Shown here: positions 2,119 through 51,023 of the stretch, piece by piece | Layout: each line of letters opens with the position of its first letter | Numbering within the stretch: the stretch's first letter is position 1 | Assembly: GCA_964017185.1 (NCBI GenBank) | Contig: OZ024871.1 | Span: forward strand, 3,673,472 to 3,737,471 | Reading direction: 5' to 3' | DNA: 64,000 bases | Origin: Rugalucina vietnamica | Taxonomy: Eukaryota > Mollusca > Bivalvia > Lucinida > Lucinidae | The notes under the pieces: generated by a model | Database searches by the model: none | What the model was told of the DNA's origin: nothing | What the model saw: the letters and a program-made list of their open reading frames with translations, nothing else | Made by a program: the position numbers and the translations under genes

Positions 2119-2901
2119 CATGGGGTTATCAAGAATTACATGCACTTTATTTATATGTTTTGATTGTATTATTCGATTCCACTCAAACTTACAATGCAAA
2201 TATCCCCATGTAATATGCAGCGGTCTGCAAAATTTCATCACAATCCCTTCATCTATTATAAAATTACAGCGAAATGAAAACACCCACTTTCACCATCACG
2301 GAGCAGTAAAAATTAAATGACGGATTTAAACTTCTGATATTTATTTGGGCATTATTTTTTCAAAAAATCATGCAATGTTTTGATTTGTAATGTTTTACAA
2401 AATGCCATTGAAGTTTTATGGGCAAATGAGAAATTAGAGTTTGTTTCAAGGGGAATTTTACAAAATTGACGGTTGATCTGTGTTGCATGAAGTTCAGATG
2501 CCGTTTAAACATTTTGAAAAAGCAAGCATGCAGGCCTTAGCAAAACAACATAGGTGCACAAATGGTCCATCAAAATTTTTCAGCAAGTATAAAATGTTTT
2601 GTAATGGATTCATTAAGACACATGGCACTTTACGCTGTGATCTGCTCAATAGTTTTGAAGAAAACGCAAAAGAAATGCGATACTGCAATGCAAGCTTAAC
2701 GTTATTTCTGACGTGCTCAGTGATGGGGTGGGTGGGTTAAGTAAACCCATCACTAACTGGCAATAAAACACTTTTAGTTGTCCAGACTTTCATAACTGAT
2801 TGGATTTAAACAAGTTTATCGTCAGCTAAAATTTTAATATGTTTGCCTGAACCGTTATAAGTTATAAGAAAAGTCCACATAATTTTTGATAATCTCGTAA
2901 G
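2119..2901. other. unassigned sequence
   Basis: AT-rich. An 86-codon open frame at 2480-2740 (+) has an overlapping 64-codon frame on the other strand and no domain I recognise. There is no splice-site support and I treat it as noncoding. Confidence 0.4.
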
Positions 2902-2988
2902 TACCTAATTGTCAATTTAGTTTTTCCAAACTCGGTTTTTGGAGTCGGAATTTCTTTCCCTGATCATTGGCTATTTGTACCTTTTTAT
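2902..2988 (+). mobile_element. PLE 3' terminus fragment
   Basis: Only the last ~85 bp of the PLE, including the terminal hairpin region and the 'tatttgtaccttttt' end, diverged from the consensus. Confidence 0.75.
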
Positions 2989-3102
2989 TCGCATTGTACC
3001 TTTTTATTCTCATTCTGAAAATATCTGAACTTGCAATAATCGTCTCGGTTTGTCAAGTAGATTTAGATAATCGACCAACTAACTTGCGAAACTAATCGAA
3101 AA

Positions 3103-3430
3103 AAGGTACAAGTAGGCAAAGATCAGGAAAAGGCGCAATCAGAAAAAAAGATTCCCACTCCAAAAACCGAGGTGGGAAAAAACTAAATAAAAAACCAGGT
3201 ACTTATACAATGAAAACATATCGTAAGCCGAATGAGCAGCTATTTTCCCAATAGGTGGCCACTCAGTTACCTAAACTTAAATAAAAATATGAAAACGTAC
3301 ATAAGGCGCCAACAGCACAAAAAATTAAACACCAAGACATAAAACAAAAAAGAACCACCACAGACAGTATCTCCTTGCAACGATCAGTAACACAAAATTA
3401 CTGGCGGGCTTAAACCGGTTTTACATGGCC
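3103..3430 (-). mobile_element. PLE 3' UTR copy, head-to-head with the next copy
   Basis: Starts 'aaaaaaggtacaagtaggca' and runs through the whole 3' UTR landmark series to about 3430. A plus-sense PLE begins about 17 bp further on, so the two 5' (truncated) ends face each other. Confidence 0.85.
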
Positions 3431-3446
3431 ATGCTTCTGCAGTTCA

Positions 3447-4461
3447 GAAGAAACCGTTTTCGTATGGTGTATACATTTCGCAGCTTATTAGGTTTGCTAA
3501 AGTCTGCAATCATGACGCGCGAAATAAATGTTTAACAGCCAAACTTCTCCAGCAGTGATATCGATATCATAAACTTGGAAAAACATTTTCTAAATTTTAT
3601 CGCAGACACGATGAGTTGATTTCCAAATTTAATGTTTGGCTAAAGACCCTTTTACGTGAGGGCCTTTCAGAACCTGAATTCTATGGTGACTTCGTTTATG
3701 AATTTAAGAAGCTTAAAGGAAAGAATGATTTTTCTTTTAAGTTCAGAAAAATTATAACTCGTTACAGACGGATAGGTTATAACTTGAATGTTATGCGACA
3801 GTCTGCATGCTTAGTTTTTAACCCAATCATGGTTGATAACTATGCTGCCTTCGTTAATTGCACGCCGGTGGGTTGGGCGTCAGACTCTTACGATGGCCTC
3901 GACTTAAAGCTATTCAGCTGATCCAACTGATGTTTTTTGAACAGGGGTCCAACTGATGTTTTTTCTTTTGCTCCGGAGTTAGTAAGTTATTCGGCGCCCA
4001 GGGATCTCCATCGTCGGGCAGCTTACTGAATCTGTGAGTCCTGGTTTTTGATCCAGCAGTATGTTTATTTTGATTTATTTGTTTGTTCTTGATGAGTCAT
4101 TGACTAGTTAGAGATTCACCACGAGGACCGAAGAACTAGCTAAATGTTATGGACCACTGCAGAAGCTGAGGGTGAAGTTATTGCCATGTAAAATCAATTT
4201 AAGCCCGCCAGTAACTGTGTGTTACTGATCGTTCCAAGTCGATACTTCTGTGGTGGTTCTTTATGTTTTATGTCTTGGTGTTTGAAATTTTTGTGCTGTA
4301 GGCGCCTTATGTGTGTTCTCATATTTTTAGTTAAGTAATGGTAACTGAGTGGCCACCTATTGGGAAAAAAGCTGCTCATTCGGCTTACGAAATGTTTCTT
4401 GGTATCAGTACCTGATTGTTGTTTTTTTTCCACCTTTTCCTGATCTTTGCCTACTTGTACC
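3447..4461 (+). mobile_element. PLE copy with RT C-terminus and 3' UTR
   Basis: 5'-truncated plus-sense copy. It begins inside the RT C-terminal region (degenerate equivalents of 'YGVYISQLIRFA'), keeps a 101-codon frame at 3616-3921 matching the last ~100 residues of the 45962-48133 protein, and continues through the 3' UTR to the 'gcctacttgtacc' end. Frameshifts, stops and an internal rearrangement near 3920-3960 make it non-coding. The SECIS-like core is damaged: the AUGA position reads ACGA. Confidence 0.85.
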
Positions 4462-5083
4462 TATTCATTTTAGTTGGTTGGGGCCGGTGCTTCTTGTCTG
4501 TTGCTTGGCGCACCGGGGTTCAACTGGTGTTTTTCTTTTTTACGTGTTTCAGTACGTTTAGTATTCGGCACCCAGGGATCTCCATCGTCGGGCAGCTTTC
4601 TGAGTCTGTTGTCCTCGTTTTTGATTCATCAAGGCGGTTATCATGATGTATTCTTTTGTCCTGGATGATTCATTGACTAGTTAGAGATTCACCAACCAAA
4701 CAACTAACCAAATGTTGTGAACCACAATAGAAGATGAGGGTGAGGTTAGGCGCCTGTAAAGCCGGTTTGACCCCCCCCCCTCCCAGTATTTTTATATTAC
4801 TGATCGTTCCAAGGCAATACTTCTGTTGTGGTTCTAATTGTGTTTTGGAGTCAAATTTTTGTGCTGTTTGAGCCTTATGTACGTTTTCAGATTTTTAGTT
4901 CAGTTTGGGTAACTGAGTGGCCGCCTATTGGTCAATAGCTGCTCACTCGGCTTACGATATGTTTTTTTAGTATACGTACCTAAGTGTTCTTTCAGTTTTT
5001 TCTCACCCCTCGGTTAATGGAGTGGGAATATCTTTCTGATTGCGCCATTTCCTGATCATTGTCTACTTGTACCTTTTTAAAAG
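4462..5083 (+). mobile_element. PLE copy in direct tandem with the previous one
   Basis: Begins directly after the 3' end of the preceding copy, starting just downstream of the ORF stop position ('attttagttggttggggcc'), and ends at about 5083. Head-to-tail tandem copies are the pseudo-LTR arrangement known for PLEs. A C-run at 4770-4782 is a local expansion. Confidence 0.85.
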
Positions 5084-5619
5084 TATCGATAATGTGTTCT
5101 TGGGATAACTTAGTATAGACATGCTGAGTGCACAGGATCCTTTTTGCACGTCTCGATTTACATCATAAAATGGAAGATAAAACAGGAAACAATTCGGTGC
5201 CATTATCGAGCAAACAGATAGTGTACCATTATGGTTCATGGGAGAAAAAGAGAACATTTATTACCCTTCTATGACTGTATGCTACAATGATTAAATTATA
5301 ACCATTGCTTTTACGATCGTCATATCCAACGTTGTGTTCTATATCGACTTATTTGTTGAAAGAAATGTTTCAAGAAATGATTCAAATCATGATAGCATAA
5401 GGTACATGTACCTATATACTACTTGTTATTTAAAGTGCAAACTCGCGCACTCCGACCTGTTTCGTATGTCAGTATGTACAGCCGTACCGTATTGTAGCCG
5501 TACCGTATTGTTACTAAGCCAATAGAATATAATTAAGATATTATTTTGTTTGTAACTGTGTCTTGTATTGCGAGTTATCACATCATTTAAAAAAGTAAGG
5601 CGAGATGAAGATAAGGTTA
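5084..5619. other. unassigned sequence with a short tandem duplication
   Basis: No recognisable gene. The 16-17 bp word 'agccgtaccgtattgt' occurs twice in tandem around 5480-5514. Confidence 0.4.
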
Positions 5620-7307: not shown

Positions 7308-8371
7308 GATGTTGACGTTCTTCACCGTGCTTCTTATAGTGTATACATTTCACAACTTACTAGGTTTGCTAGAGTCAGCAATCATGATGCGGACTTCAAC
7401 GCACGAACTTGATAAATGTTTAACAGCCAAACTTCTCCAGCAGGGTCATAAACTTCCAAATACATTTTCTAAATTCTATCGCAGGCACTATGAATTGATT
7501 TCCAAATTTAATGTTGGGCTTAAGACGCTTTTACGTGAGGGCCTTTCGGAATCAGAATTTTATGGTGACTTGGTTTACGAATTGAAGAAAAATCATTACA
7601 CGTTACAGACGTATAGGTAATAAGTTAAATGTTATGCGACAGTCTGCATGTTCAGTTTTTAACCCAATCATGGTTGATAACTATGCTGCCATCTTTAATT
7701 GCACGCCGGTGGGTCGGGCGCCAGACTCTTTGATGGCCCGACTTAAAGCTATTCGTTTTAGTTGGTTGGAGTCGGAGCTTCTTGTCTGTTGCTTGGCCAA
7801 CTGGGGTTCAACTGGTGTTTTTCTTTTGCACCGGATTTCAGTAACTTTAAAGTTATTCGGCGCCCAGGGATCTCCATCGTCGCATAGATAACTGAATCTG
7901 TGTCCTCGTTTTTGATTCATCATGGTGGTTATCATGATTTATTTGTTTGGCCTTGATGATTCATTGATTATTAAAAGATTCACCACGAGTACCGAACAAC
8001 TAACTAAATGTTGTGAACCACTGTAGAAGATGAGGGTGAGGTTAAGGCCCTGTAATATCGGGTTTAGCCTCCCATTACTATAATATTACTGATCAATCCA
8101 AGATGATGCTTCTGGTGGTTCAATTTGTTTTATAATTTGGAGTCGATTTTTTGTGTTGTTTGAACCTTATGTAGGTTTTCAGGGTTATAGTTAAGTTCGG
8201 GTAACTGAGTGGCCACCTATTGGGAAATTGCTGCTCACTCGGCTTACGATTTGTTTTCTTAGTATAAGTACCTAATTGTAAGTTTGTTTTTTCCCACGTC
8301 GGTTTTGGAGTGGGTATTTCTTGGTGATTGCGCCTTTTCCTGATCATCGCCTACTTGTATCTTTTCACGCA
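7308..8371 (+). mobile_element. PLE copy with RT C-terminus and 3' UTR
   Basis: 5'-truncated plus-sense copy. The frame at 7294-7620 matches the C-terminal region of the RT protein (blocks like 'CLTAKLLQQG', 'FSKFYRRHYELISKFNVGLK', 'GLSESEFYGDLVYEL'), then frameshifts; a second frame at 7634-7891 continues it. The 3' UTR is complete to 'gcctacttgtatctttt'. The SECIS-like quartet position reads UUGA, so it is degenerate. The 3' end abuts an antisense PLE 3' end only a few bases away. Confidence 0.85.
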
Positions 8372-10250: not shown

Positions 10251-11683
10251 AAATGTTTTGGTCATATTTACGTTTGTATCCAAACTCCGAAGAGTGACAG
10301 AGACACTATTTTAGGCTTTTAGTCCAGCAAAAATTCGCTTTTCAGGCAGCAGTGACATTCAAAGTCTGCATGTATCTTCAGTATTGTTGGTAGAGTATCT
10401 GAAATGTGTTTGGTGATCGGGAAATCATCGAGCCATTCAGGCATCAAAAACGCTAAATATATTCGCTAATATTTGCAAAAATAGTGATTGTGATAATACC
10501 TAGCGTTTTAAGTCTAAATGTCACCGTAAATGTCATTTGGCTTTATCATTACGGTCATTGATTCCAAATCCTTATTTTGATTTTCCAAGACAAATTATCT
10601 CTATAGAAAGTCTCACACAACATTTTTGATTGATACTCAAATAATTCTACATTCAATTAAAAAGATCTTTGGTCGACAAGAACACACACATTATTTATTC
10701 AGTCTCAAATTTGATAAACGCACCTTATCATCTGCCCAATTCGATACATAGAGTAGTATATAATTCGAACAAATAGCAACGTCTAAACATACACTGCTCA
10801 CGGTATCAAAGGAAAATTGCAGAGTTTCCCATACATTGGAATGTAAACTAGTGAATCTTTGACCCACATTTAAATGCACTTCAGAAAGATTCCGATTGTC
10901 TGTGTGTTTTGCATAATTTGCCATGTGCCTCTACGTTTGTGATTAAAGGAAGTTTCATTCCGACTGGCGTTGCCCTACCTAAGACCATGGGTGTTATTTA
11001 CATCTTTTGAATATTGTGAATTTTTTAGGCATTTTCTGAATTTACGGATATAAAAAATTAATGCAATCTCCGTGTCGAATTCAGTCTAGCAAATGGTAAC
11101 AGTATCGGATCGAAAGTTCCTTTCGACATTTATGTTTGACCTTTTTTGAAAAAAAAAAAAAAGACATTTTTTGGCAAAATCAAATTTTTACAAACACGTT
11201 CTGTGAAATGAAACAGGACATTTTCCTTGTAATACATGTACATGTTTCTGTTAAATATTTAAAAAAAATCAAATGTTTATTGAATTTTTTTTTTGGATTA
11301 TCAACGGACATAATCTCGAATCAAATCCCATGTAAACGAATCACGATCAGAAAAGGGCGGATATCCGGAGGATTGTTTTTCATGTGCGGCCATAGTACAA
11401 TGTATCTCACAGTGCCATTAAATATTTTGAGCAGAATAAAATACACAAATAAATATAAACAGAAGCGTAAAGAATTCATCAAAGTGTAAAAATCGAATTA
11501 ACGTAGCTCATGGTTTCGATAGAAAAATCAGTTGGTTTGTTTGATGGGTTCTCCTAATGATTCGGACACAATTTTCAGTTTTGTTTGAAACAAAAGTAGA
11601 AACAACAACGGCTTAAGAGTACAACGTATGTGTCGGTTTCAGTGCCGCTTATCTTATAATTTCGTGTTAGTGTAAAAGCCTGT
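10251..11683 (+). other. GPCR intron, nothing else recognised
   Basis: Intronic sequence without a recognised repeat. An A-run lies at 11149-11162. The 117-codon plus frame at 11136-11489 is low-complexity (K/F/I/N-rich) and has no motif. Confidence 0.45.
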
Positions 11684-12009
11684 CTCATTAATGTGTTCAC
11701 TGCTCTTAAAGGATCCCAGTTTTGATTTTTATTTGCTATTACTGCAGCTGGTGTTGTGCCGTGTGGCGGCCCTAAAACGTCTCCAAGTACATTATCCATA
11801 GTGCAGGTTATATTTTCTTTTTGGTCCTATGAGATCAGCGAGGATATTGTGATAAAAATCAAACATTTATTATCGGTATAGATTCGTTTTCTAACCAATG
11901 TTTAACAGAGTTGGTCCCATTTAGATAATATTAGTCTTTGTATCGACTACCCCGTTGAAAGTTGCAAAATTTCAGTAATTCTCTTTGGCTCCATGTTGCC
12001 AAATCCAAA

Positions 12010-12055
12010 AGGGCTCTGACGAGACTTTAATAGTCGAAACTGCGTTATGTTCCAT
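12010..12055 (+). ncRNA. type I hammerhead ribozyme, partly degenerate
   Basis: Core CUGACGA at 12016-12022, stem II GACU (12023-12026) with AGUC (12032-12035), and GAAA at 12036-12039. Stem III reads CUGCGU instead of the palindromic CCGCGG of other units, and stem I pairing is weak. Probably inactive, but the catalytic core residues are present. Confidence 0.6.
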
Positions 12056-12387
12056 CCCCTTTCTCATTAATGTGTTCATTGCTCTTAAAGGAACCCAGTT
12101 TTAATTTTTATTTGCTATTACTGCAGCTGGTGTTGTGCCGTGTTGCGGCCCTAAAAAGCCTCCCCGTACATCATCCATAGTGCAGGTTATATTTTCTTTT
12201 TGGTCATTTGAGATCAGCGAGGATATTCTGAGAAATCAGAAATTTATTATCGGTTAAGATTCATTTTCTAACCAATGTTTAACATATTTGGTCCCATTTA
12301 GATAATATTAGTCTTTGTATCGACTACCCTGTTGAACGTTGCAAAATTTCAGTAATTCTCTTTGGCTCCATGTTGCCAAATCTAAAG

Positions 12388-12430
12388 GGTCACTGACGAG
12401 ACTTTAACAGTCGAAACCGCGGTATAGCAT
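12388..12430 (+). ncRNA. type I hammerhead ribozyme core
   Basis: CUGACGA at 12393-12399, stem II GACU (12400-12403) with AGUC (12409-12412), GAAA at 12413-12416, palindromic stem III CCGCGG (12417-12422), and the cleavage triplet GUA ending at 12424. Stem I is incomplete because the unit carries a small deletion right after the cleavage site. Confidence 0.7.
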
Positions 12431-18537: not shown

Positions 18538-19016
18538 AAAGTTCATTCTGTAAATTGTCTATAAATGTCACTTTCATTTCGGGGTTCATTCACTTTGCAC
18601 GCGACCCACTGCGGTTCATAGCTCCATGAACAACAGAAAAATTAAACTCATTGCTTATATTTACATTCGTTTCTCTCTATCGCTTGTTGAAAAATCACCA
18701 AGGCGGTCACATTTACCAGCAAACAGAGAATCTACACACAGTGTGTGTTCAAACAGCGGAACGGCGTCGACGTTTACAACGTCAAATCAGATTGGTGAGA
18801 TTCATGTTTTTTGACGTTAAGTTTGGATTACGTCATGTCGCGTGACACAATGTTGTTCATGGAAGTATGAGCACAGATGAACATCTAATGGTTCATCTAA
18901 GGAGGTTTTAGAAAAATGTAAATATTGTAAAATAAATGTAATTAATACAAGATATATGTCATTGTACTTTCTTTCTAAGCTCGCACATGTTCACTGGCTA
19001 ACTGTTAATCATATAA
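18538..19016. other. unassigned sequence inside element D
   Basis: No repeat partner seen in the window. Short overlapping plus frames at 18626-18845 have no motif. Confidence 0.35.
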
Positions 19017-21232
19017 AAAGGTACAAGTAGGCAAAGATCAGGAAAAGGCGCAATCAGAAAAAGATTCCCACTCCAAAAACCGAGGTGGGAAAAAACCAAA
19101 CTAACAATCAGGTATTTATACCATGAAACATATCGTAAGCCGAATGAGCAGCTATTTTCCCAATAGGTGGCCACTCAGTTACCTTAACTTAACTAAAAAT
19201 ATGAAAACATACATAAGGCGCCAACAGCACAAAAAATTTTATACACCAAGACATAAAACAAAAAGAACCACCACAGAAGTATCGACTTGGAACGATCAGT
19301 AACACAAAGTTACCGGCGGGCTTAAACCGGTTTTACATGGCCATAACCTCACCCTCAGCTTCTGCAGTGGTTCATAACATTTAGTTAGTTATTTGGTCCT
19401 CGTAGTGAATCTCTAACTAGTCAATGAATCATCAAGAACAAACAAATAAATCATGATAAACATCCTGATGAATCAAAAACCAGGACTCACAGACTGAGTA
19501 AGCTGCCCGACGATGGAGATCCCTGGGCGCCGAATAACCTACTAACTCCGGAGCAAAAGAAAAACACCAGTTGGACCCCGGTGGGCCAAGCAACAGACAA
19601 GAAGCTCCGGCCCCAACCAACTAAAATGAATAGCTTTATGTCGGGGCCATCATAGAGTCTGACGCCCGACCCACCGGCGTGCAATTAAAGAAGGCAGCAT
19701 AGTTATCAACCATGATTGGGTTAAAAACTAAGCATGCAGACTGTCGCATAACATTTAAGTTATAACCTATACGTCTGTAACGTGTTATGATTTTTCTGAA
19801 CTGAAAAGAAAAATCATTAATTCCTTTAAGTTTCTTAAATTTGTAAACCAAGTCACCATAAAATTCAGGTTCCGAAAGGCCCTCTCTTAAAAGCGTTTTT
19901 GACCCAACATTATATTTGGAAATCAATTCATAGTGTCTACGATAAAATTTAGAAAATGTTTTTCGAAGTTTATGATACCGATAGCCCTGTTGGAGAAGTT
20001 TTGCCGTTAAACACTTATTTCGAGCGTTGAAGTCTGTAACATGATTGCAGACTCTAGCAAACCTAATAAGTTGCGAAATGTATACACCATAAGAAGCACG
20101 ACGACCCAGCAGGCACCTGACGTCTGTTCGACGTCAGATATTGGTTATATTTTGGTCGCGACGTCATATAACCAATTTCCAACGTCTATCAGACGTCATT
20201 TCCTGACGTCTTTTGGACGTCTGGATTGGACGTTGTTTTGACGTCCAACTAGTTCGTCAGTTTGACGTCGTAATCAAGACGTGATTTAGACCTTGTGTTT
20301 TTCATACTTCTGACCATGTGTGGTGTGCAAATTAATGAAACTTCACTTTGGGTAAAAATCAGATCATTCGTTTCGTGTGTTTCTTTTGCTTTCTTTCTTT
20401 CTTTTTTCTTTTTTTCTATGTTACTTCCAGCAGACATTTGACGTCCGTTGGACGTCAGTTTGACGTCAGACTCCAACGTCATAATAACGTTGGAGTAAGG
20501 TTGATTTTGAAAGTTTGTTTGTTGTCAAAACTTGACGTCAATCTGACGTGCTAAAGCCAACGTCGGTTTAACGTTTGAAAGCTGACGTCAATCTGACGTC
20601 CTAAAAACGACGTTTGAATTAATGTCATATAAATAGTTTAAGGTGTATATTTTTTCGCATTTTTGAATAACAGTGGATTCAGAAGAGCAGTGATGCACTT
20701 TTGATAGTCTCTTTCACTTCTTTGATAGAGTTTTTCGGGACATACACAATGTTCAAGATATTAATTCAGCCTGATGTTGATACATCTTGTTTAAGCAAAA
20801 TTTTATTGCTTTATGGTGCTAAAACCAATAAGACATTAGTGTGAGAAATAAGATTATTCTGAACAAATAATTATTTAAAATGGTGAAATAAATATTAAAA
20901 TATACAAATTTTATTTTCATCTTAATTGAAAGTTTGATAATTTAGTGAAAGACTTTATTTTGATTAATAAATAATCATTTTTTTCTACATTAATTAAGCA
21001 TGAGGGCGAAATATGGGATTTCCCATACGAGACTCAGATATGACTTATAAGTGGCAAGGTTGAAATTATTATTTGAATTTGATATTATTACATAATATGT
21101 GTAAGATATTATGTCAGTTTAAGGGCAGCTAACTCTGACGACATTTACGAAAAACACGTCCCCAGCATGCATCTGACGTCAACTTGTCGTCGGATATTGG
21201 TTGTAATTTGGTCACGACGTCATACATACTCA

Positions 21233-21391
21233 TTATTACTTCAGTAACTTGATCTGATGGGTCGGATCACGTCTCGTAGCTGCGCCAGGAAAGACCAGAT
21301 CACGCGAGTCGGAGACGAGCGTGATCCGGTCTTTCCTGGCGCAGCTACGAGACGTGATCCGACCCATCAGATCAAGTTACTGAAGTAATAA
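21233..21391. repeat. near-perfect 159-bp hairpin at the core of the foldback
   Basis: Arms 21233-21296 and 21328-21391 are perfect 64-bp reverse complements. After one A/C mismatch, GATCACGC (21298-21305) pairs with GCGTGATC (21319-21326), leaving a 13-base loop. Lack of decay means it is young or kept homogeneous by gene conversion. Confidence 0.95.
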
Positions 21392-22465
21392 CGCGTTTAT
21401 TATATACCTACAGAAGTAATCAGCCACAAGAATTCAAATCATAAATTTGCGACGTTATGACGACGTACCATACGACGTTGCGTCAAATCTTTGATGACGT
21501 AACATTGTGCCAGTTCTTACGTCAAAGCTAGAAAAGTCGTCATTTTTTTGTTAATTATGTTGCTTTGATGACAAGCGAACCTCTTTAACTTCTGAAACAG
21601 TTGTTGTTTTATAAATTAAAATAGAAAATACTCTGGTTGTCATTCAGATTTAGATGCCGGCTTTAGGTGCTGGATTTTATATTGTTGGGTAAAAAATGGA
21701 CGATGGTGATACGGAATCGTATCAGGACAGTGTGGTGATACAAGATTCCGTATTTTTGTGTCGGAAAATGGGTAGTATCAATGGTTATTTTTGGTAGGTA
21801 TATAATAAAACCAATAATCAACGTCCACCTGACGTCCAGTCCTGACGTCAGTGGACGTATTGATATGACGTCGAAATGACGCCGGATTCAAACGTAAGTC
21901 TAACGTCATATGTCGACAGAGTTAGCTGCCCTTGAACTGACATAATTTCTTGCGCAAATTATGTAACAAAATCAAATTCAAATAATAATTTCAACATTGC
22001 CACTTTTAAAAAAGTCATATCTAGGTATATATCGGAAATCATATATTTCGCCCACCATGCTTAATTTAGAAAAAATAATTATTTGTTAATCAAAATAAAG
22101 TCTTTCACTAAATTATTAAACCTTCTATTAAGACGAAAATGAAATTTGTATATTTTAATACTTATTTCACCATAATTAAATTATTAATTGTTCACAATAG
22201 TCTTATTATTTACACTAATGTCTTATTTGTTTTAGCACCATATAGCAATAAAATTTGACATAAATAAGATATACCAACATCAGAGTGATTTCACATCGTA
22301 AACATTTTGTATATCCCGAATAACTCTATCAAAGGAGTGAAAGGGAATAACAATAGTGCATCACCGCACTTCTGAATCCACTTCAGGATTTCAGAATGTT
22401 AATTATAATGCGAACAAACATTCGCGATATCGGTTTTAGCACGTCAGATTTACGTCTGTTTTTGA

Positions 22466-22627
22466 CGTCAAACAAACTTTCAAAATCAACCTAACCCCAA
22501 CGTCATTATGACGTCACATTTGAGACATCAAACCAACGTTGTTTTTCTGACGTCAGAATGACGTCTGTTTTTGACGTCAGAAAGACGTCTGTTTTTGACG
22601 TCAGAATGACGTCTGTTTTTGACGTCA
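22466..22627. repeat. 24-bp tandem array of TGACGTCA (CRE-like) octamers
   Basis: Six TGACGTCA octamers lie within about 160 bp. Three consecutive 24-bp units (about 22549-22620) each carry TGACGTCAGAA followed by GACGTCTG and a T-run. TGACGTCA is the canonical CREB/ATF binding sequence. Related but looser GACGTC words fill 20115-20270, 20435-20610 and 21830-21915. Confidence 0.8.
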
Positions 22628-24352
22628 AACAAACTTTCAAAATCAACGTAAATCCAACGTCATTACGACGTCGGAGTCTGACGTCTATCTGACGTCCAAC
22701 CGACGTCAAATGTCTGCTGGGGAGGAACGTCACCATCCAAAAAAGGAAAATTTACTATATCAAAATCAAAGTCATCGCGCTTATCATAAATTTTAGAAGA
22801 AACAAATCCATTTGCAACAGAAAGATGTAGATCTTAAAAGGGGGCTTCAGTATCTGTGATATTGGCTTTGTTCAACTGAAGTTCAGGTGGATAAATTTGA
22901 TTGACCATACCTTCAAAATAAGGGTTGTCAATGTTCAAAAGGTCATCGAGGTACCTAGATGTGGAATTAAAAGCCTCGATAACATCAGCTTGATTATCAT
23001 GGTTAAGAGAATCCATGAAATCTCTTTCGTAGCAGTATAAAAATAAATCAGCTACGAGAGGTGCGCAATTTGTACCCATCGGAATTCCAACAATTTGTCT
23101 GTATAACTTGGTTCCAAATCTAATATAAATATTATCAAGGAGATAGGATAAGGCATCGCATACATTCTGACATGACCAAAGTGTATACCGACTTTGGTCA
23201 GAGGAAGTGAAAAAAGCCTTTCTGTCATTACATGCCAAATAAAGTGAACCATAGTTTTTTAATGCCCTTTTGAAGGTCCACTCTATCAAATTCAGAAGTT
23301 TTTCTTTTATTAGATTATGTGGTAATGTTGTATACAGAGTAGAAAAATCATATGTGGACAAGCTTGTCGCACGGAACCCTCTACACTTCAATTTACTGAG
23401 CACCTCACCAGAATTTTTAATTGACCAAAACCAATTTTTATTTGAAGTTTCATACACTGTCTCACAGTATCTTATAACATGAGATTTGATAGCAGTAAGA
23501 CAGGAAGTTAATAATTTAGAAAGTTCAGTGGTAGTACAAGAGCTAGAATTTGCAATAAATCTAGCTTTGTATGGTCTTTTGTGAAGCTTAGGTAACCAAT
23601 ACATCGTAGGAAGTTTGTCTTGGCCTTCATTGACACAAACAGAAAACTTAACAGGTAAATCGTTTAAGTGGGCATTAACTACAGACACCTCATCAGTATC
23701 TGTCTCCAGATAAGCCCTGGTACCATCAAGCTCCTGTTTTAAGGTGTTAACGTAGTGAAGCCTACAAACGACAACAACATTGTTTGCGGCTTTATCTGCC
23801 GGAACCAAGACATACTTTCTATGAAACTCTTGGATACCCTGCTTCAAATGCCTAAATGACGATTTGGGTTTAGGAGGTAAAAGATTAGTATTTTGTGAAT
23901 AAAACTTAATACGTTTATCCACGATAGTGAAGATACTTCTTTTCCATTCTTTAAGAGCATTATCCTCAACACCCTCTCGTTTACACCATCGAATACCGAA
24001 ATCATTTAATGCAGATGAAATCTCCTCTCTACATTTGTCGAAATTAATGTAGGAAGGGAATCTATATTTCGGACCTTTAGAAACGTATGTTTGATCCCAT
24101 CCCTATCACGTATAACTATGCATATATTTAAACTAAAAATTGACAATTTATGTTTGTAGTGAGCTTCCCACGATTAAATTATTTCCCATCAATTATTTGC
24201 ATGCATCAACTTTGTCGACTGATCATATCATCATCATATCCTTTTATAGCCCTTTGTCCTCATCTGAGGGTTGGACTTGTTTGACAAGTCTCCTTCTGTT
24301 AAAAATTGCAAAATTACAGCAATTCTCTTTGGCTCCATGTTTGCAAATCTAA

Positions 24353-24396
24353 AGGGTCACTGACGAGGCTTGAATAGCCGAAACCGCGGTATGGTC
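24353..24396 (+). ncRNA. type I hammerhead ribozyme, complete consensus
   Basis: Best-preserved ribozyme here. Stem I GGGUCA (24353-24358) pairs with UGGUCC (24391-24396) through Watson-Crick and G-U pairs. Then CUGACGA (24359-24365), stem II GGCU/AGCC (24366-24369 with 24375-24378), GAAA (24379-24382), stem III CCGCGG (24383-24388), and the GUA cleavage triplet ending at 24390. Stem II differs from the 12.4 kb unit (GACU/AGUC) by a compensated A-U to G-C change. The short palindromic stem III would favour pairing between two copies, as known for dimeric hammerheads. Confidence 0.85.
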
Positions 24397-24703
24397 CATT
24401 ACCTTTCTCACAAATTATTATTTTTTTTTTGCTATTACTGCAGCTGGTGTTGTGCCGTGTAGTGGCTCTAAAAAGTCTCCACGTACACCATTTATAGTGC
24501 AGATTATATTTTTCTTTTGTCATATGAGATCAGAGAGGGTATTTTGAGAAATCAGAAAATTATTATCGGTTAAGATTCATTTTCTAACCAACGTTTACTG
24601 TATTTGGTCCCATTTAGATTAAACAAGACTTTATTATTGACTACCCTGTTAAAAGTTGCAAAAATACAGCAATTCTCTTTGGCTCCATGTTGCCAATTCT
24701 AAA

Positions 24704-24747
24704 TGGTCACTGAAGAGACTTGAATAGCCGAAACCGCAGTATGGCCC
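24704..24747 (+). ncRNA. type I hammerhead ribozyme, degenerate
   Basis: CUGAAGA at 24710-24716 and GAAA at 24730-24733. Stem II GACU/AGCC has one A-C mismatch, and stem III CCGCAG has lost its symmetry. Probably inactive or weak. Confidence 0.65.
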
Positions 24748-24796
24748 ATATATGCTCACTGCTCTTAAATGATCTCAGTTTTATTTTTATTCTTAG

Positions 24797-44765: not shown

Positions 44766-45333
44766 TACTGGTCCAACAGGTGTTTTTCTTTTGCTCCGGA
44801 GTTAGTAAGTTATTCGGCGCACAGGGATCTCCATCGTCGGGCAGCTTACTCAATCTGTGAGTCCTCGTTTTTGATTCATCAGGATGTTCATCATGATTTA
44901 TTTTTTTGTTCTTGATGATTCAATGAATAGTTAGAGATTCACCACGATGACCGAAGAACTAACTAAATGTTATGAACCACTGCAGAAGTGAGGGTGAGGT
45001 TATGGCTATGTAAAACCGGTTTAAGCCCGCTAGTTATTTTGTGTTACTTATCGTTCCAAGGCGATACTTCTGAGGTGGTTCTTTTTGTTTCATGTCTTGG
45101 TGTTTAAAATTTCTTGTGTTGTTGGCGCCTTATGTATGTTTTCATATTTTTAGTTAAATTTAGGTAACTGAGTGGCCACCTATTTTGAAAATAGCTGCTC
45201 ATTCGGCTTACGATATGTTTTCATGGTATTAGTACCTGATTGTTAATTTAGTTTTTTCTCACCTCGGTATTTGGAGTGGGAATCTTTTTCTGATCGCACC
45301 TTTTCCTGATCTTTGCCTACTTGTACATTTTTC
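44766..45333 (+). mobile_element. PLE 3' UTR copy, tail-to-tail with the full-length RT copy
   Basis: Plus-sense copy truncated at 'ggtccaacaggtg' and ending 'gcctacttgtacattttt'. Only about 7 bp ('ccaccac') separate it from the antisense copy starting at 45341, so about 565 bp of each form a long inverted repeat. Confidence 0.92.
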
Positions 45334-45340
45334 CACCACT

Positions 45341-48130
45341 AAAAAGGTACAAGTAGGCAAAGATCAGGAAAAGGCGCAATCAGAAAAAGATTCCCACTCC
45401 AAAAACCGAGGTGGGAAAAAACCAAACTAACAATCAGGTACTTATACCATGAAACATATCGTAAGCCGAATGAGCAGCTATTTTCCCAATAGGTGGCCAC
45501 TCAGTTACCTTAACTTAACTAAAAATATGAAAACATACATAAGGCGCCAACAGCACAAAAAATTTTAAACACCAAGACATAAAACAAAAAGAACCACTAC
45601 AGAAGTATCGACTTGGAACGATCAGTAACACAAAGTTACTGGCGGGCTTAAACCGGTTTTACAGGTACCTAACCTCACCCTCAGCTTCTGCAGTGGTTCA
45701 CAACATTTAGTTAGTTCTTCGGTCCTCGTGGTGAATCTCTAGCTAGTCAATGAATCATCAAGAACAAACAAATAAATCATGATAAACTTCCTGATGAATC
45801 AAAAACCAGGACTCACAGATTGAGTAAGCTGCCCGACGATGGAGATCCCTGGGCGCCGAATAACCTACTAACTCCGGAGCAAAAGAAAAACACCAGTTGG
45901 ACCCCGGTGGGCCAAGCAACAGACAAGAAGCTCCGGCCCCAACCAACTAAAATGAATAGCTTTAAGTCGGGGCCATCATAGAGTCTGACGCCCGACCCAC
46001 CGGCGTGCAATTAAAGAAGGCAGCATAGTTATCAACCATGATTGGGTTAAAAACTAAGCATGCAGACTGTCGCATAACATTCAAGTTATAACCTATACGT
46101 CTGTAACGTGTTATGATTTTTCCGAACTGAAGAGAAAAATCATTTATTCCTTTAAGTTTCTTTAATTTGTAAACCAAGTCACCATAAAATTCAGGTTCCG
46201 AAAGGCCCTCACTTAAAAGTGTCTTTAACCCAACATTATATTTGGAAATCAATTCATAGTGTCTACGATAAAATTTAGAAAAGGTTTTTCGAAGTTTATG
46301 ATACCGATAGACCTGTTGGAGAAGTTTTGCCGTTAAACATTTATTTCGAGCGTTAAAGTCTGTGACATGATTGCAGACTCTAGCAAACCTAATAAGTTGC
46401 GAAATGTATACACCATAAGAAGCACGACGAGGAACGTCACCATCCAAAAAAGGAAAATTTACTATATCAAAATCAAAGTCATCGCGCTTATCATAAATGT
46501 TAGAAGAAACAAATCCATTTGCAACAGAAAGATGTAGATCTAAAAAGGGGGCTTCGGTATCTGAGATATTAGCTTTGTTCAACTGAAGTTCAGGTGGATA
46601 AATTTGATTGACCATACCTTCAAAATAAGGGTTGTCAATGTTCAAAAGGTCATCGAGGTACCTAGATGTGGAATTAAAAGCCTCGATAACATCAGCTTGA
46701 TTATCATGGTTAAGAGAATCCATGAAATCTCTTTCGTAGCAGTATAAAAATAAATCAGCTACGAGAGGTGCGCAATTTGTACCCATCGGAATTCCAACAA
46801 TTTGTCTGTATAACTTGGTCCCAAATCTAATATAAATATTATCAAGGAGATAGGATAAGGCGTCGCACACATTCTGACATGACCAAAGGGTATACCGACT
46901 TTGGTCAGAGGAAGTGAAAAAAGCCTTTCTGTCATTACATGCCAAATAAAGTGAACCATAGTTTTTTAATGCCCTTTTGAAGGTCCACTCTATCAAATCC
47001 AGAAGTTTTTCTTTAATTAGATTATGTGGTAATGTTGTATACAGAGTAGAAAAATCATATGTGGACAAGCTTGTCGCACGGAACCCTCTACACTTCAATT
47101 TACTGAGCACCTCACCAGAATTTTTTATTGGCCAAAACCAATTTTTATTTGAAGTTTCATACACTGTCTCACAGTATCTTATAACATGAGATTTGATAGC
47201 AGTAAGACAAGAAGTAAATAATTTAGAAAGTTCAGTGGTAGTACAAGAGCTAGAATTTGCAATAAATCTAGCTTTGTATGGTCTTTTGTGAAGCTTAGGT
47301 AACCAATACATCGTAGGAAGTTTGTCTTGGCCTTCATTGACACAAACAGAAAACTTAACAGGTAAATCGTTTAAGTGGGCATTTACTACAGACACCTCAT
47401 CAGTATCTGTCTCCAGATAAGCCCTGGTACCATCAAGCTCCTGTTTTAAGGTGTTAACGTAGTGAAGTCTACAAACGACAACAACATTGTTTGCGGCTTT
47501 ATCTGCCGGAACCAAGACATACTTTCTATGAAATTCTTGGATACCCTGCTTCAAATGCCTAAATGACGATTTGGGTTTAGGAGGTAAAAGATTAGTATTT
47601 TGTGAATAAAACTTAATACGTTTATCCACGATAGTGAAGATACTTCTTTTCCATTCTTTAAGAGCATTATCCTCAACACCCTCTCGTTTACACCATCGAT
47701 TACCGAAATCATTTAATGCAGATGCAATCTCCTCTCTACATTTGTCGAAATTAATGTAGGAAGGGAATCTATATTTCGGACCTTTAGAAACAATTTTGCG
47801 AATTCTAGAATCCGAAATTATTTTTAAATTTCCAGTAACTATATGTCCAGCTGGTTGATAAACATATTTTGAATCTTTACAATCTCAAGACTTAGGAGTA
47901 TTAGCATGGATATCAAGATCAGAAACAAGTTTATTGAAATTAAAAATAGTATTTCTGATTGGTCTGTTATATTTGTAACAAATAATAGGAGGTTCTGAAT
48001 TTTGGAAGTAGGTAGGTATAGACTGTATCACTGATTTATCCTGGAATATGCTTGGTAAATCAATAAAGTCAATTCCTTTATTGATGAAAGGAATTTTAAT
48101 AAAACTTCTAATGTGATTAGATAAAACATA
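45341..48130 (-). mobile_element. PLE copy 2 (Naiad-like), most complete copy
   Basis: Retroelement of about 2.79 kb: 3' UTR (45341-45961), an RT-bearing frame and a 5' truncation near 48126-48130, where the sequence passes into P-type transposase. The GIY-YIG endonuclease expected N-terminal to the CxC motif in Naiads is absent, lost with the 5' truncation. The 3' terminus carries a conserved TTCCCAC/GTGGGAA hairpin about 40-75 bp from the end, present in nearly all copies in this window. Confidence 0.9.
45913..45994 (-). promoter_or_regulatory. candidate SECIS element overlapping the stop codon
   Basis: Sense (minus) strand. Helix I CAGAC (45987-45983) pairs with GUCUG (45924-45920) and extends outward through CGGGCG with UGCUUG-type pairs. 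An internal loop follows, with AUGA (45979-45976) opposite GA (45933-45932). Helix II GGCCCCGACU (45974-45965) pairs with GGUUGGGGCC. The apical loop starts with unpaired AAA (45963-45961), 12 nt after AUGA. These are the defining parts of a eukaryotic SECIS. The AAA overlaps the TAA stop, so the element straddles the end of the frame. Copy 1 (19580-19680) keeps the same pairs; older fragments are degenerate. Confidence 0.65.
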
Positions 48131-48133
48131 CAT
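45962..48133 (-). CDS. Penelope-like reverse transcriptase with in-frame TGA (candidate selenocysteine)
   Basis: Reverse transcriptase that copies element RNA into DNA at the target. Reading from the ATG at 48133 gives 82 codons, one TGA (47885-47887), then 640 codons to TAA at 45962-45964. The TGA is followed by D-C, so the site reads U-D-C where Naiad PLEs have a CxC motif between the endonuclease and RT. After that: V-P-A-D-K-A (about residue 208), W-L-P-K-L-H-K (about 277), motif A Y-D-F-S-T-L-Y (catalytic Asp about 360), G-I-P-M-G-T-N-C-A-P (about 447) and R-Y-L-D-D-L-L (catalytic Asp pair about 494-495). There are no frameshifts. The first few residues before L-S-N-H-I-R probably come from flanking transposase DNA, so the ATG is fortuitous. 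No GIY-YIG domain. A single Cys-to-stop mutation is the alternative reading. Confidence 0.75.
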
Positions 48134-48546: not shown

Positions 48547-48582
48547 ATAATAATTAATATATTGATCGAGAACTCAATAGGA

Positions 48583-49101
48583 AGGTACAAGTAGGCAAAG
48601 ATCAGGAAATGGCGCAATCAGAAAAAGATTCCCACTCCAAAAACCGAGGTGGGAAAAAACCAAACCAACAATCAGGTACTTATACCATGAAACACATCGT
48701 AAGCCGAATGAGCAGCTATTTTCCCAATAGGTGGCCACTCAGTTACCTTAACTTAACTAAAAATATGAAAACATACATAAGGCGCCAACAGCACAAAAAA
48801 TTTTTCAAACACCAAGACATAAAACGAAAAGAACCACCACAAAAGTATCGACTTGGAACGATCAGTAACACAAAGTTACTGGCGGGCTTAAACCGGTTTT
48901 ACATGGCCATAACCTCACCCTCAGCTTCTGCAGTGGTTCATAACATTTAGTTAGTTATTCGGTCCTCGTGGTGAATCTCTAACTAGTCAATGAATCATCA
49001 AGAACAAACAAATAAATCATGATAAACATCCTGATGAATCAAAAACCAGGACTCACAGACTGAGTAAGCTGCCCGACGATGGAGATCCCTGGGCGCCGAA
49101 T
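48583..49101 (-). mobile_element. PLE 3' UTR copy upstream of copy 2
   Basis: Same orientation as copy 2, from 'ggtacaagtaggcaaagatc' to 'gagatccctgggcgccgaat'. It resembles an upstream pseudo-LTR, but 450 bp of transposase sequence lies between it and copy 2, so it is a separate insertion. Confidence 0.88.
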
Positions 49102-50381: not shown

Positions 50382-50640
50382 ACAAACTGATTGCAAGCAA
50401 TTATAGAGGTATCCTTAAATCCTTGCTTTCTTCACCAGAAGTACTCCACTCTTAGACATAGCTGCAGAATATAAATTTAGATGTTAATGATATGGTTGGC
50501 TGCACCTTAATTCTGTGTTAAATGTGCATGCAATACGAATTTACAAAAATACAATATGTCTACATCACTATTAGCAAGAAGAATATGTGATGGGGTAACA
50601 AGCTTCACTTACCCAAATATTGAATGTGATTATACCAGTC

Positions 50641-51023
50641 TTTTATTTTTATTTGCTGTTACTACAGCTGGTGTTGTGCCGTGTGGCAGCCCTAAAAATT
50701 CTCCCCGTACACCATCCACAGTGCAGATTATATTTTCTTTTGGGTCATGGAGGGTATATTGAGAAATCAGAACATTATTACCGGTTTAGATTCACTTTCT
50801 AACCAACGTTTAATATATTTGGCCCCATTTTGATAATACTAGTCTTTGTATCTACTACCCTGTTAAAAGTTGCAAAATTACAGTAATTCTCTTTGGCTCC
50901 ATGTTGCAAAATCTAAAAGGTCACTGATGAGGTTTGAATAGCCGAAACCGCGGTATGTCCCATCACCTTTTTCATAAATATGCTCACTGCTTTAAAAGGA
51001 TCTCAACTTTATTTTTATTTCCT
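50641..51023 (+). repeat. single hammerhead-bearing repeat unit
   Basis: One nearly exact unit that starts and ends at the 'ttttatttttattt' word, giving the element's natural limits (about 380 bp). It contains 'ctgttactacagctggtg', 'ttctctttggctccatgttg' and a hammerhead core. Confidence 0.8.
50918..50960 (+). ncRNA. type I hammerhead ribozyme
   Basis: CUGAUGA (50924-50930), stem II GGUU/AGCC (50931-50934 with 50940-50943), GAAA (50944-50947), palindromic stem III CCGCGG (50948-50953), and the GUA cleavage site ending at 50955. Stem I is GGUCA with UGUCC. All catalytic core residues are present. Confidence 0.8.

Follow-up and report, generated by a model that had tools for sequence, protein, structure and literature searches.

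A 5'-truncated Penelope-like element in Rugalucina vietnamica whose family very probably encodes a selenoprotein

Among the Penelope-like elements, the Naiads of clams and spiders are said to encode selenoproteins with multiple selenocysteines, as Craig and colleagues reportedly described in 2021. An N-terminal GIY-YIG region, a CxC linker, a telomerase-like reverse transcriptase (RT) and tandem arrays together make up what we take to be the Naiad arrangement.

The canonical Penelope/Poseidon elements are built differently. These elements, such as PAc of Anolis, have a telomerase-like RT, a C-terminal GIY-YIG endonuclease, a hammerhead and tandem pseudo-LTRs (PMC11167929). Another described system is viral. 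The GPX4-type selenoprotein of fowlpox virus has its SECIS element in the coding sequence downstream of the UGA, where it was shown to function (PMC6769590, PMC8310308).

The whole stretch of DNA that was analysed, 64 kb in length, is called the window here. The best explanation of its sequence, held with high confidence, is that it carries a Naiad-type Penelope-like element, dead and lacking its 5' part, from a family whose protein would be a selenoprotein, with UGA codons 133, 144 and 437 read as selenocysteine (Sec) by means of a SECIS element. Direct support comes from conserved TGA codons that coincide with Cys-type positions or adjoin them, an intact SECIS core, young full-length copies without other stops, and other families with stops at these places. 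The initial annotation had proposed that the TGA in the window copy encodes selenocysteine and is not a random nonsense change. The conserved TGAs, the SECIS and the Cys columns strongly support this proposal.

Table 1. Features of the element and of related sequences in the window.
Feature	Positions	Strand	Source
Second copy, 3' part, split by a 2.6-kb insertion	19010..20104	-	
Second SECIS (37.4 bits), at another copy's end	19594..19661	-	Rfam
Second copy, middle part, starting downstream of the TGA site	22722..24084	-	
Inverted UTR copy beside the 3' end, palindromic junction	44770..45332	+	
Penelope-like element, 5'-truncated, codon 359 onward and the 3' UTR up to its end	45340..48122	-	blastn
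3' UTR, pieces repeated many times across the window	45340..45961	-	
SECIS element (RF00031), 5' arm in the last ORF codons, 3' arm in the 3' UTR	45920..45987	-	Rfam
TAA terminator, three-base apical bulge of the SECIS in the predicted fold	45962..45964	-	
ORF codons 359-1077 and TAA: CxC linker, telomerase-like RT; no GIY-YIG part	45962..48121	-	
TGT, Cys575 (VVVC), another exchange site: Cys in this family, in many relatives a stop or Trp	47471..47473	-	
TGT, Cys439, closing the CxC motif	47879..47881	-	
TGA, codon 437, opening the U-D-C (CxC) motif, proposed selenocysteine	47885..47887	-	
UTR fragment of the same family, direct orientation, upstream, pseudo-LTR-like, 97%	48576..49101	-	

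On the minus strand, positions 48133-45962 read as a single frame of 722 sense codons and one TGA, closed by TAA. Re-reading this frame bears out the original observation of one frame with a single TGA (47887-47885) followed by Asp-Cys. The reading from 48133 stood, but the Met at that position and the next few residues turned out to be flanking DNA. Homology with host copies starts at 48122, which is codon 359 of a 1077-codon ORF. Positions are given from here on in full-ORF numbering, in which codons 437 and 575 correspond to residues 83 and 221 of the 723-residue frame. Over 2783 bp, the window copy is 99.5% identical by blastn to positions 2363-5145 of the host copy L014. Since it is 5'-truncated and has no GIY-YIG region, this copy is dead and unable to make the protein alone, and the selenoprotein claim is one about the family. 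Pfam gave no RT match for the window ORF and no family in the stretch 48463-48151 upstream of it, and a PDB sequence search with query A2 gave 0 matches.

Several other repeats surround the element. The inverted UTR copy and positions 45340-45903 form a head-to-head 3' UTR palindrome (44770-45332 with 45340-45903) beside the window copy. Sub-threshold Rfam matches to microRNAs, located at the centre of this inverted repeat, were dismissed. The second copy is interrupted at 20105-22721 by 2.6 kb with TGACGTCA-like repeats. No further copy inside the window covers the TGA site. A 377-bp tandem duplication and related copies (11679-12425, 24285-24788 and 50599-51016) are, as far as seen, unrelated to the element.

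The element family is very abundant and young. In the host genome (1.09 Gb, 47 contigs), a search with the part of the ORF that follows the TGA started from 34,128 first-look candidates, and 69 matches were scored. The open frame after the TGA is exactly 640 residues long in 67 of the 69, and thus the stop is at the same place in these 67; the other two frames have 645 and 655 residues, and one of the 67 holds an internal TAG. Reading of the best 40 of the 68 other copies, which are near-identical and do not represent 40 independent events, found TGA at codon 437 and TGT at codon 575 in all 40. The same TAA ends the frame in 39 of them; the exception, L012, lacks this TAA and runs five codons further, to a TAG. 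Element sequence lies on both sides of the site in 37 of the 40. Directly upstream of the TGA, the residues of L029, L036 and L040 are unrelated; homology is lost right before the TGA codon, so that these copies are truncated almost exactly there. Head-to-tail arrays with a spacing of 4226-4228 bp occur on contigs C1, C3, C4, C5, C15 and C16, with up to five listed units (C15:40644543 onward).

The window copy is truncated and dead, as would suit a chance nonsense mutation in this copy alone. The sharing of the TGA by all 40 other copies read refutes that idea, and its probability is practically negligible.

Two outside queries were used against the bias of a window-derived query: P0010, with Trp (W) at the site, and P0131, a relative of the Cys type. 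Their tables, like that of the 69 matches, count internal stops without positions. With P0010, 58 copies were found, with one internal TGA in 55, two in 2 and one TAA in 1. The copy with the TAA, L052, has TGG at codon 437 and the TAA elsewhere; two further copies cut out and read, L051 and L053, have TGA at the site. In total, codon 437 is TGA in 42 of 43 other copies read and TGG in the remaining one, with neither TAA nor TAG among the 43. The initial annotation had held that a majority of TGT/TGC, or TAA/TAG at the site, would speak against selenocysteine, and nothing of the kind appears in these copies. With P0131, all of the 100 matches listed have one internal TGA. By a hand count, 71 of the 100 have an open frame of 933, which fits codons 145 to 1077 because the next stop upstream is codon 144.

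The whole ORF, from its MTITKRL start, is present in 13 of the 40 loci. These 13 copies are all distinct and 99.6-99.9% identical. In every one of them the frame is interrupted exactly three times, always by TGA (codons 133, 144 and 437), and closes with a different terminator, TAA. Codons 133 and 144 lie in the GIY-YIG region that the truncated window copy has lost. A search for full-length copies with this region and extra in-frame TGAs had been suggested in the initial annotation, and all 13 answer that description. Variant codons in the 13 ORFs, from copies picked by protein score, comprise 23 silent and 28 replacement changes and 0 new stops. They hint at selection, a hint set aside given the manner of picking.

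The same set of copies can be seen in another way. A master copy may have gained the stops and been spread in trans by another element, leaving a defective non-autonomous lineage. The full-length copies are near-identical and could all have inherited the stops of one master; many copies are truncated, and 21 of the 40 loci have no QYVGQT motif upstream. Such a lineage is nevertheless highly unlikely. All three stops are TGA, they stand at or beside invariant Cys columns and none occurs elsewhere; a SECIS is present; and other families have stops at the same site or at codon 575.

The position of the TGAs can be judged against three aligned distant relatives, P0152, P0153 and L001. Among 640 comparable codons, just six columns (133, 146, 149, 437, 439 and 575) are Cys in all three. 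Two of these, 133 and 437, hold a TGA in the host family. The third TGA, codon 144, is two residues from the nearest Cys, column 146, at a two-residue alignment gap. Because only 6 of 640 columns are all-Cys, and two of them hold a TGA with the third nearby, the placement is more than chance. Codons 437 and 439 are C-x-C in the distant relatives and TGA-D-C here, in agreement with the initial reading of the TGA as the first Cys of a CxC motif. Codon 575, Cys in the three relatives and TGT in the window copy, is a stop in many related proteins.

In a first set of 153 related proteins, 37 cross codon 437, with C in 21, W in 14 and L in 2 (one L is probably misaligned). Only at codons 437 and 575 do C and W each appear more than once. 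A further search, with a query length that lets in proteins ending at the site, gave 1421 matches, and of the 120 clusters listed from it, 54 end exactly one codon before codon 437. Of the rest, W stands at this codon in 23, C in 16, R in 6, S in 3 and P in 1, while 3 have a gap and 14 are of other kinds; 14 of the 16 C clusters belong to a divergent lineage with Cys and do not represent a mutated TGA. Counted as cluster totals rather than as singly checked members, the 54 clusters hold 4540 sequences and the 23 W clusters 74.

Outside the host genome, the identity of a stop is inferred from protein ends and not from DNA. The residues found at codon 437 in the listed clusters are all, except P, one step from TGA, and Q, K, E and Y are absent. 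The latter four are one-step neighbours of TAA or TAG and not of TGA, while R and C are one step from TGA and not from TAA or TAG.

Internal protein ends also cluster at the exchange sites. Among 262 proteins with 123 internal ends, 55 end just before codon 437, most of these having come from the further search, with its query length set to let them in, and 3 having been known beforehand. Another 28 end just before codon 575, and elsewhere there are at most 3 ends per position. The 17 divergent proteins P0127-P0143 have Cys at codon 437 and end just before codon 575.

The frequent W raises the question of whether UGA is read as Trp, Arg or another ordinary residue, by programmed readthrough or a changed code. 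Many database relatives have W at these sites, and W at codons 437 and 575 is coupled: where a protein has W at 437 and covers the two sites, it has W at 575 too, in 16 of 16 cases. The coupling also fits gene callers taking TGA for Trp, which is what the paired W suggests, although a real TGG exists in L052. A SECIS is present, and the distant relatives have Cys rather than Trp. In addition, the L010 ORF contains 8 TGG and 28 TGT/TGC codons along with its 3 TGAs. An ordinary residue at the UGAs is thus very unlikely. At their C-terminal ends, the proteins P0081 and P0088 run on beyond the usual end after a W, as if a TGA stop had been called Trp, and protein databases may contain artefacts of this sort.

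Three queries found no relatives in viral_contigs. In genome_contigs there was one, L001 (QIJL01000205.1), an open Naiad-like frame of 1013 residues with Cys at all exchange sites. It is filed as a Flavobacteriales MAG and is probably eukaryotic DNA in a bacterial bin. The homologues P0044 and P0047 are filed under Candidatus Thiodiazotropha, a symbiont of lucinid clams.

A eukaryotic selenoprotein gene also has a SECIS on the same RNA, and a search for one had been suggested from the start. At the Rfam gathering threshold, the 64-kb window has two matches, both of them SECIS_1, at the end of an element copy and on its sense strand. The match at the ORF end of the window copy scores 39.0 bits against a gathering cutoff of 35. 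In its alignment the AUGA, the unpaired A motif and the GA opposite are all retained. For the extended hairpin, the folding energy is -51 kcal/mol, compared with a mean of -28.7 for shuffled sequences (z -6.6). The 5' arm is also coding sequence, the last codons being ...RASDSMMAPT. A SECIS that straddles the end of the ORF, with the UAA as a predicted bulge, is a less usual arrangement.

The core ATGA/AAA/GA is intact in 46 of 48 distinct SECIS places across the 40 loci. Rfam at gathering found a SECIS in 8 of 10 loci tested (12 matches, all SECIS_1), with none above gathering in L019 and L022. At 7692 and 3849 in the window, other and older copies show an altered core. L001, the distant relative with Cys at all exchange sites, has no Rfam match up to E 1. 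At the protein level, 80 proteins extend to residue 712, and 60 of them carry the peptide SMM, which encodes the SECIS core, within their final 14 residues; some proteins without it are truncated or diverged at the C-terminal end. It is absent from P0042, P0081 and P0088, which have Cys at codon 437.

Taken together, these features allow a mechanism to be proposed. Intact copies would make a 1077-residue protein with an N-terminal GIY-YIG region, a CxC linker and a telomerase-like RT. Using the SECIS hairpin at the ORF end, the ribosome would decode UGA 133, 144 and 437 as Sec and would terminate only at UAA. The Secs would stand in for Cys that distant relatives keep, probably in metal-binding or structural roles in the nuclease and the linker. 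The full-length protein presumably drives transposition. Failure at the successive UGAs would leave stubs of 132, 143 and 436 residues, and therefore the amount of RT should follow the selenium supply.

A further idea is a selenium-gated throttle. With the SECIS folded around the terminator, each ribosome that finishes would melt the signal needed by the next. This is a rather unlikely addition to the mechanism. If true, selenium supply would govern how much of the transposition enzyme is made, and a higher ribosome load would lower that amount.

Insertion of Sec would mean that a highly repeated gene of this genome encodes a selenoprotein with several Sec residues, and would tie mobile-element activity to selenium metabolism. 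The exchange of stop and Cys at up to four positions, in thousands of database members, would be a natural record of Sec-Cys replacement. The SECIS embedded in the terminator would allow interference between translation and SECIS function to be probed. The family is also easily misread, since gene finders cut its proteins at the UGAs or write Trp.

By the criteria that Craig and colleagues reportedly gave, the assignment to the Naiads is by domain order, CxC, RT fold, insertion pattern and the lack of a hammerhead. The GIY-YIG region is placed N-terminal to the RT by homology: full-length copies align with P0153, whose residues 45-130 match PF01541 (E 2.4e-8). A closer relative, P0126, has no Pfam match. 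The CxC motif, codons 437 and 439, is present between endonuclease and RT. The ORF was modelled with a mean pLDDT of 76.8, lower at the CxC loop; in a Foldseek search against solved structures the top 18 matches of this model are all telomerase, the best with E 2.2e-9 and TM 0.36. Pseudo-LTR, tandem and inverted insertions are seen in the regular 4226-4228 bp spacing, a terminal duplication of L014 and the inverted UTR by the window copy. No hammerhead ribozyme was found at Rfam gathering in 10 loci. The literature search gave no paper on a Penelope-like element together with selenocysteine, and no title on a selenoprotein retroelement among the papers listed.

The window family would be a further member of the already-known Naiad selenoproteins. 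Like the Naiads as reportedly described, it has the permuted order of GIY-YIG, CxC linker and RT, tandem and inverted insertions, and several in-frame UGAs. It has three proposed Sec sites and a fourth exchange site occupied by Cys, and its SECIS overlaps the terminator.

With the Penelope/Poseidon elements, the family shares a telomerase-like RT, a GIY-YIG endonuclease and tandem copies forming pseudo-LTRs. Their endonuclease is C-terminal and a hammerhead is present, whereas in the window family the endonuclease is N-terminal and no hammerhead reaches threshold in 10 loci. With the GPX4-type protein of fowlpox virus, it shares a SECIS in coding sequence, although only by the 5' arm. The fowlpox protein is a viral redox enzyme with the SECIS inside its ORF, whereas the window family is a retroelement with a SECIS straddling the stop codon.
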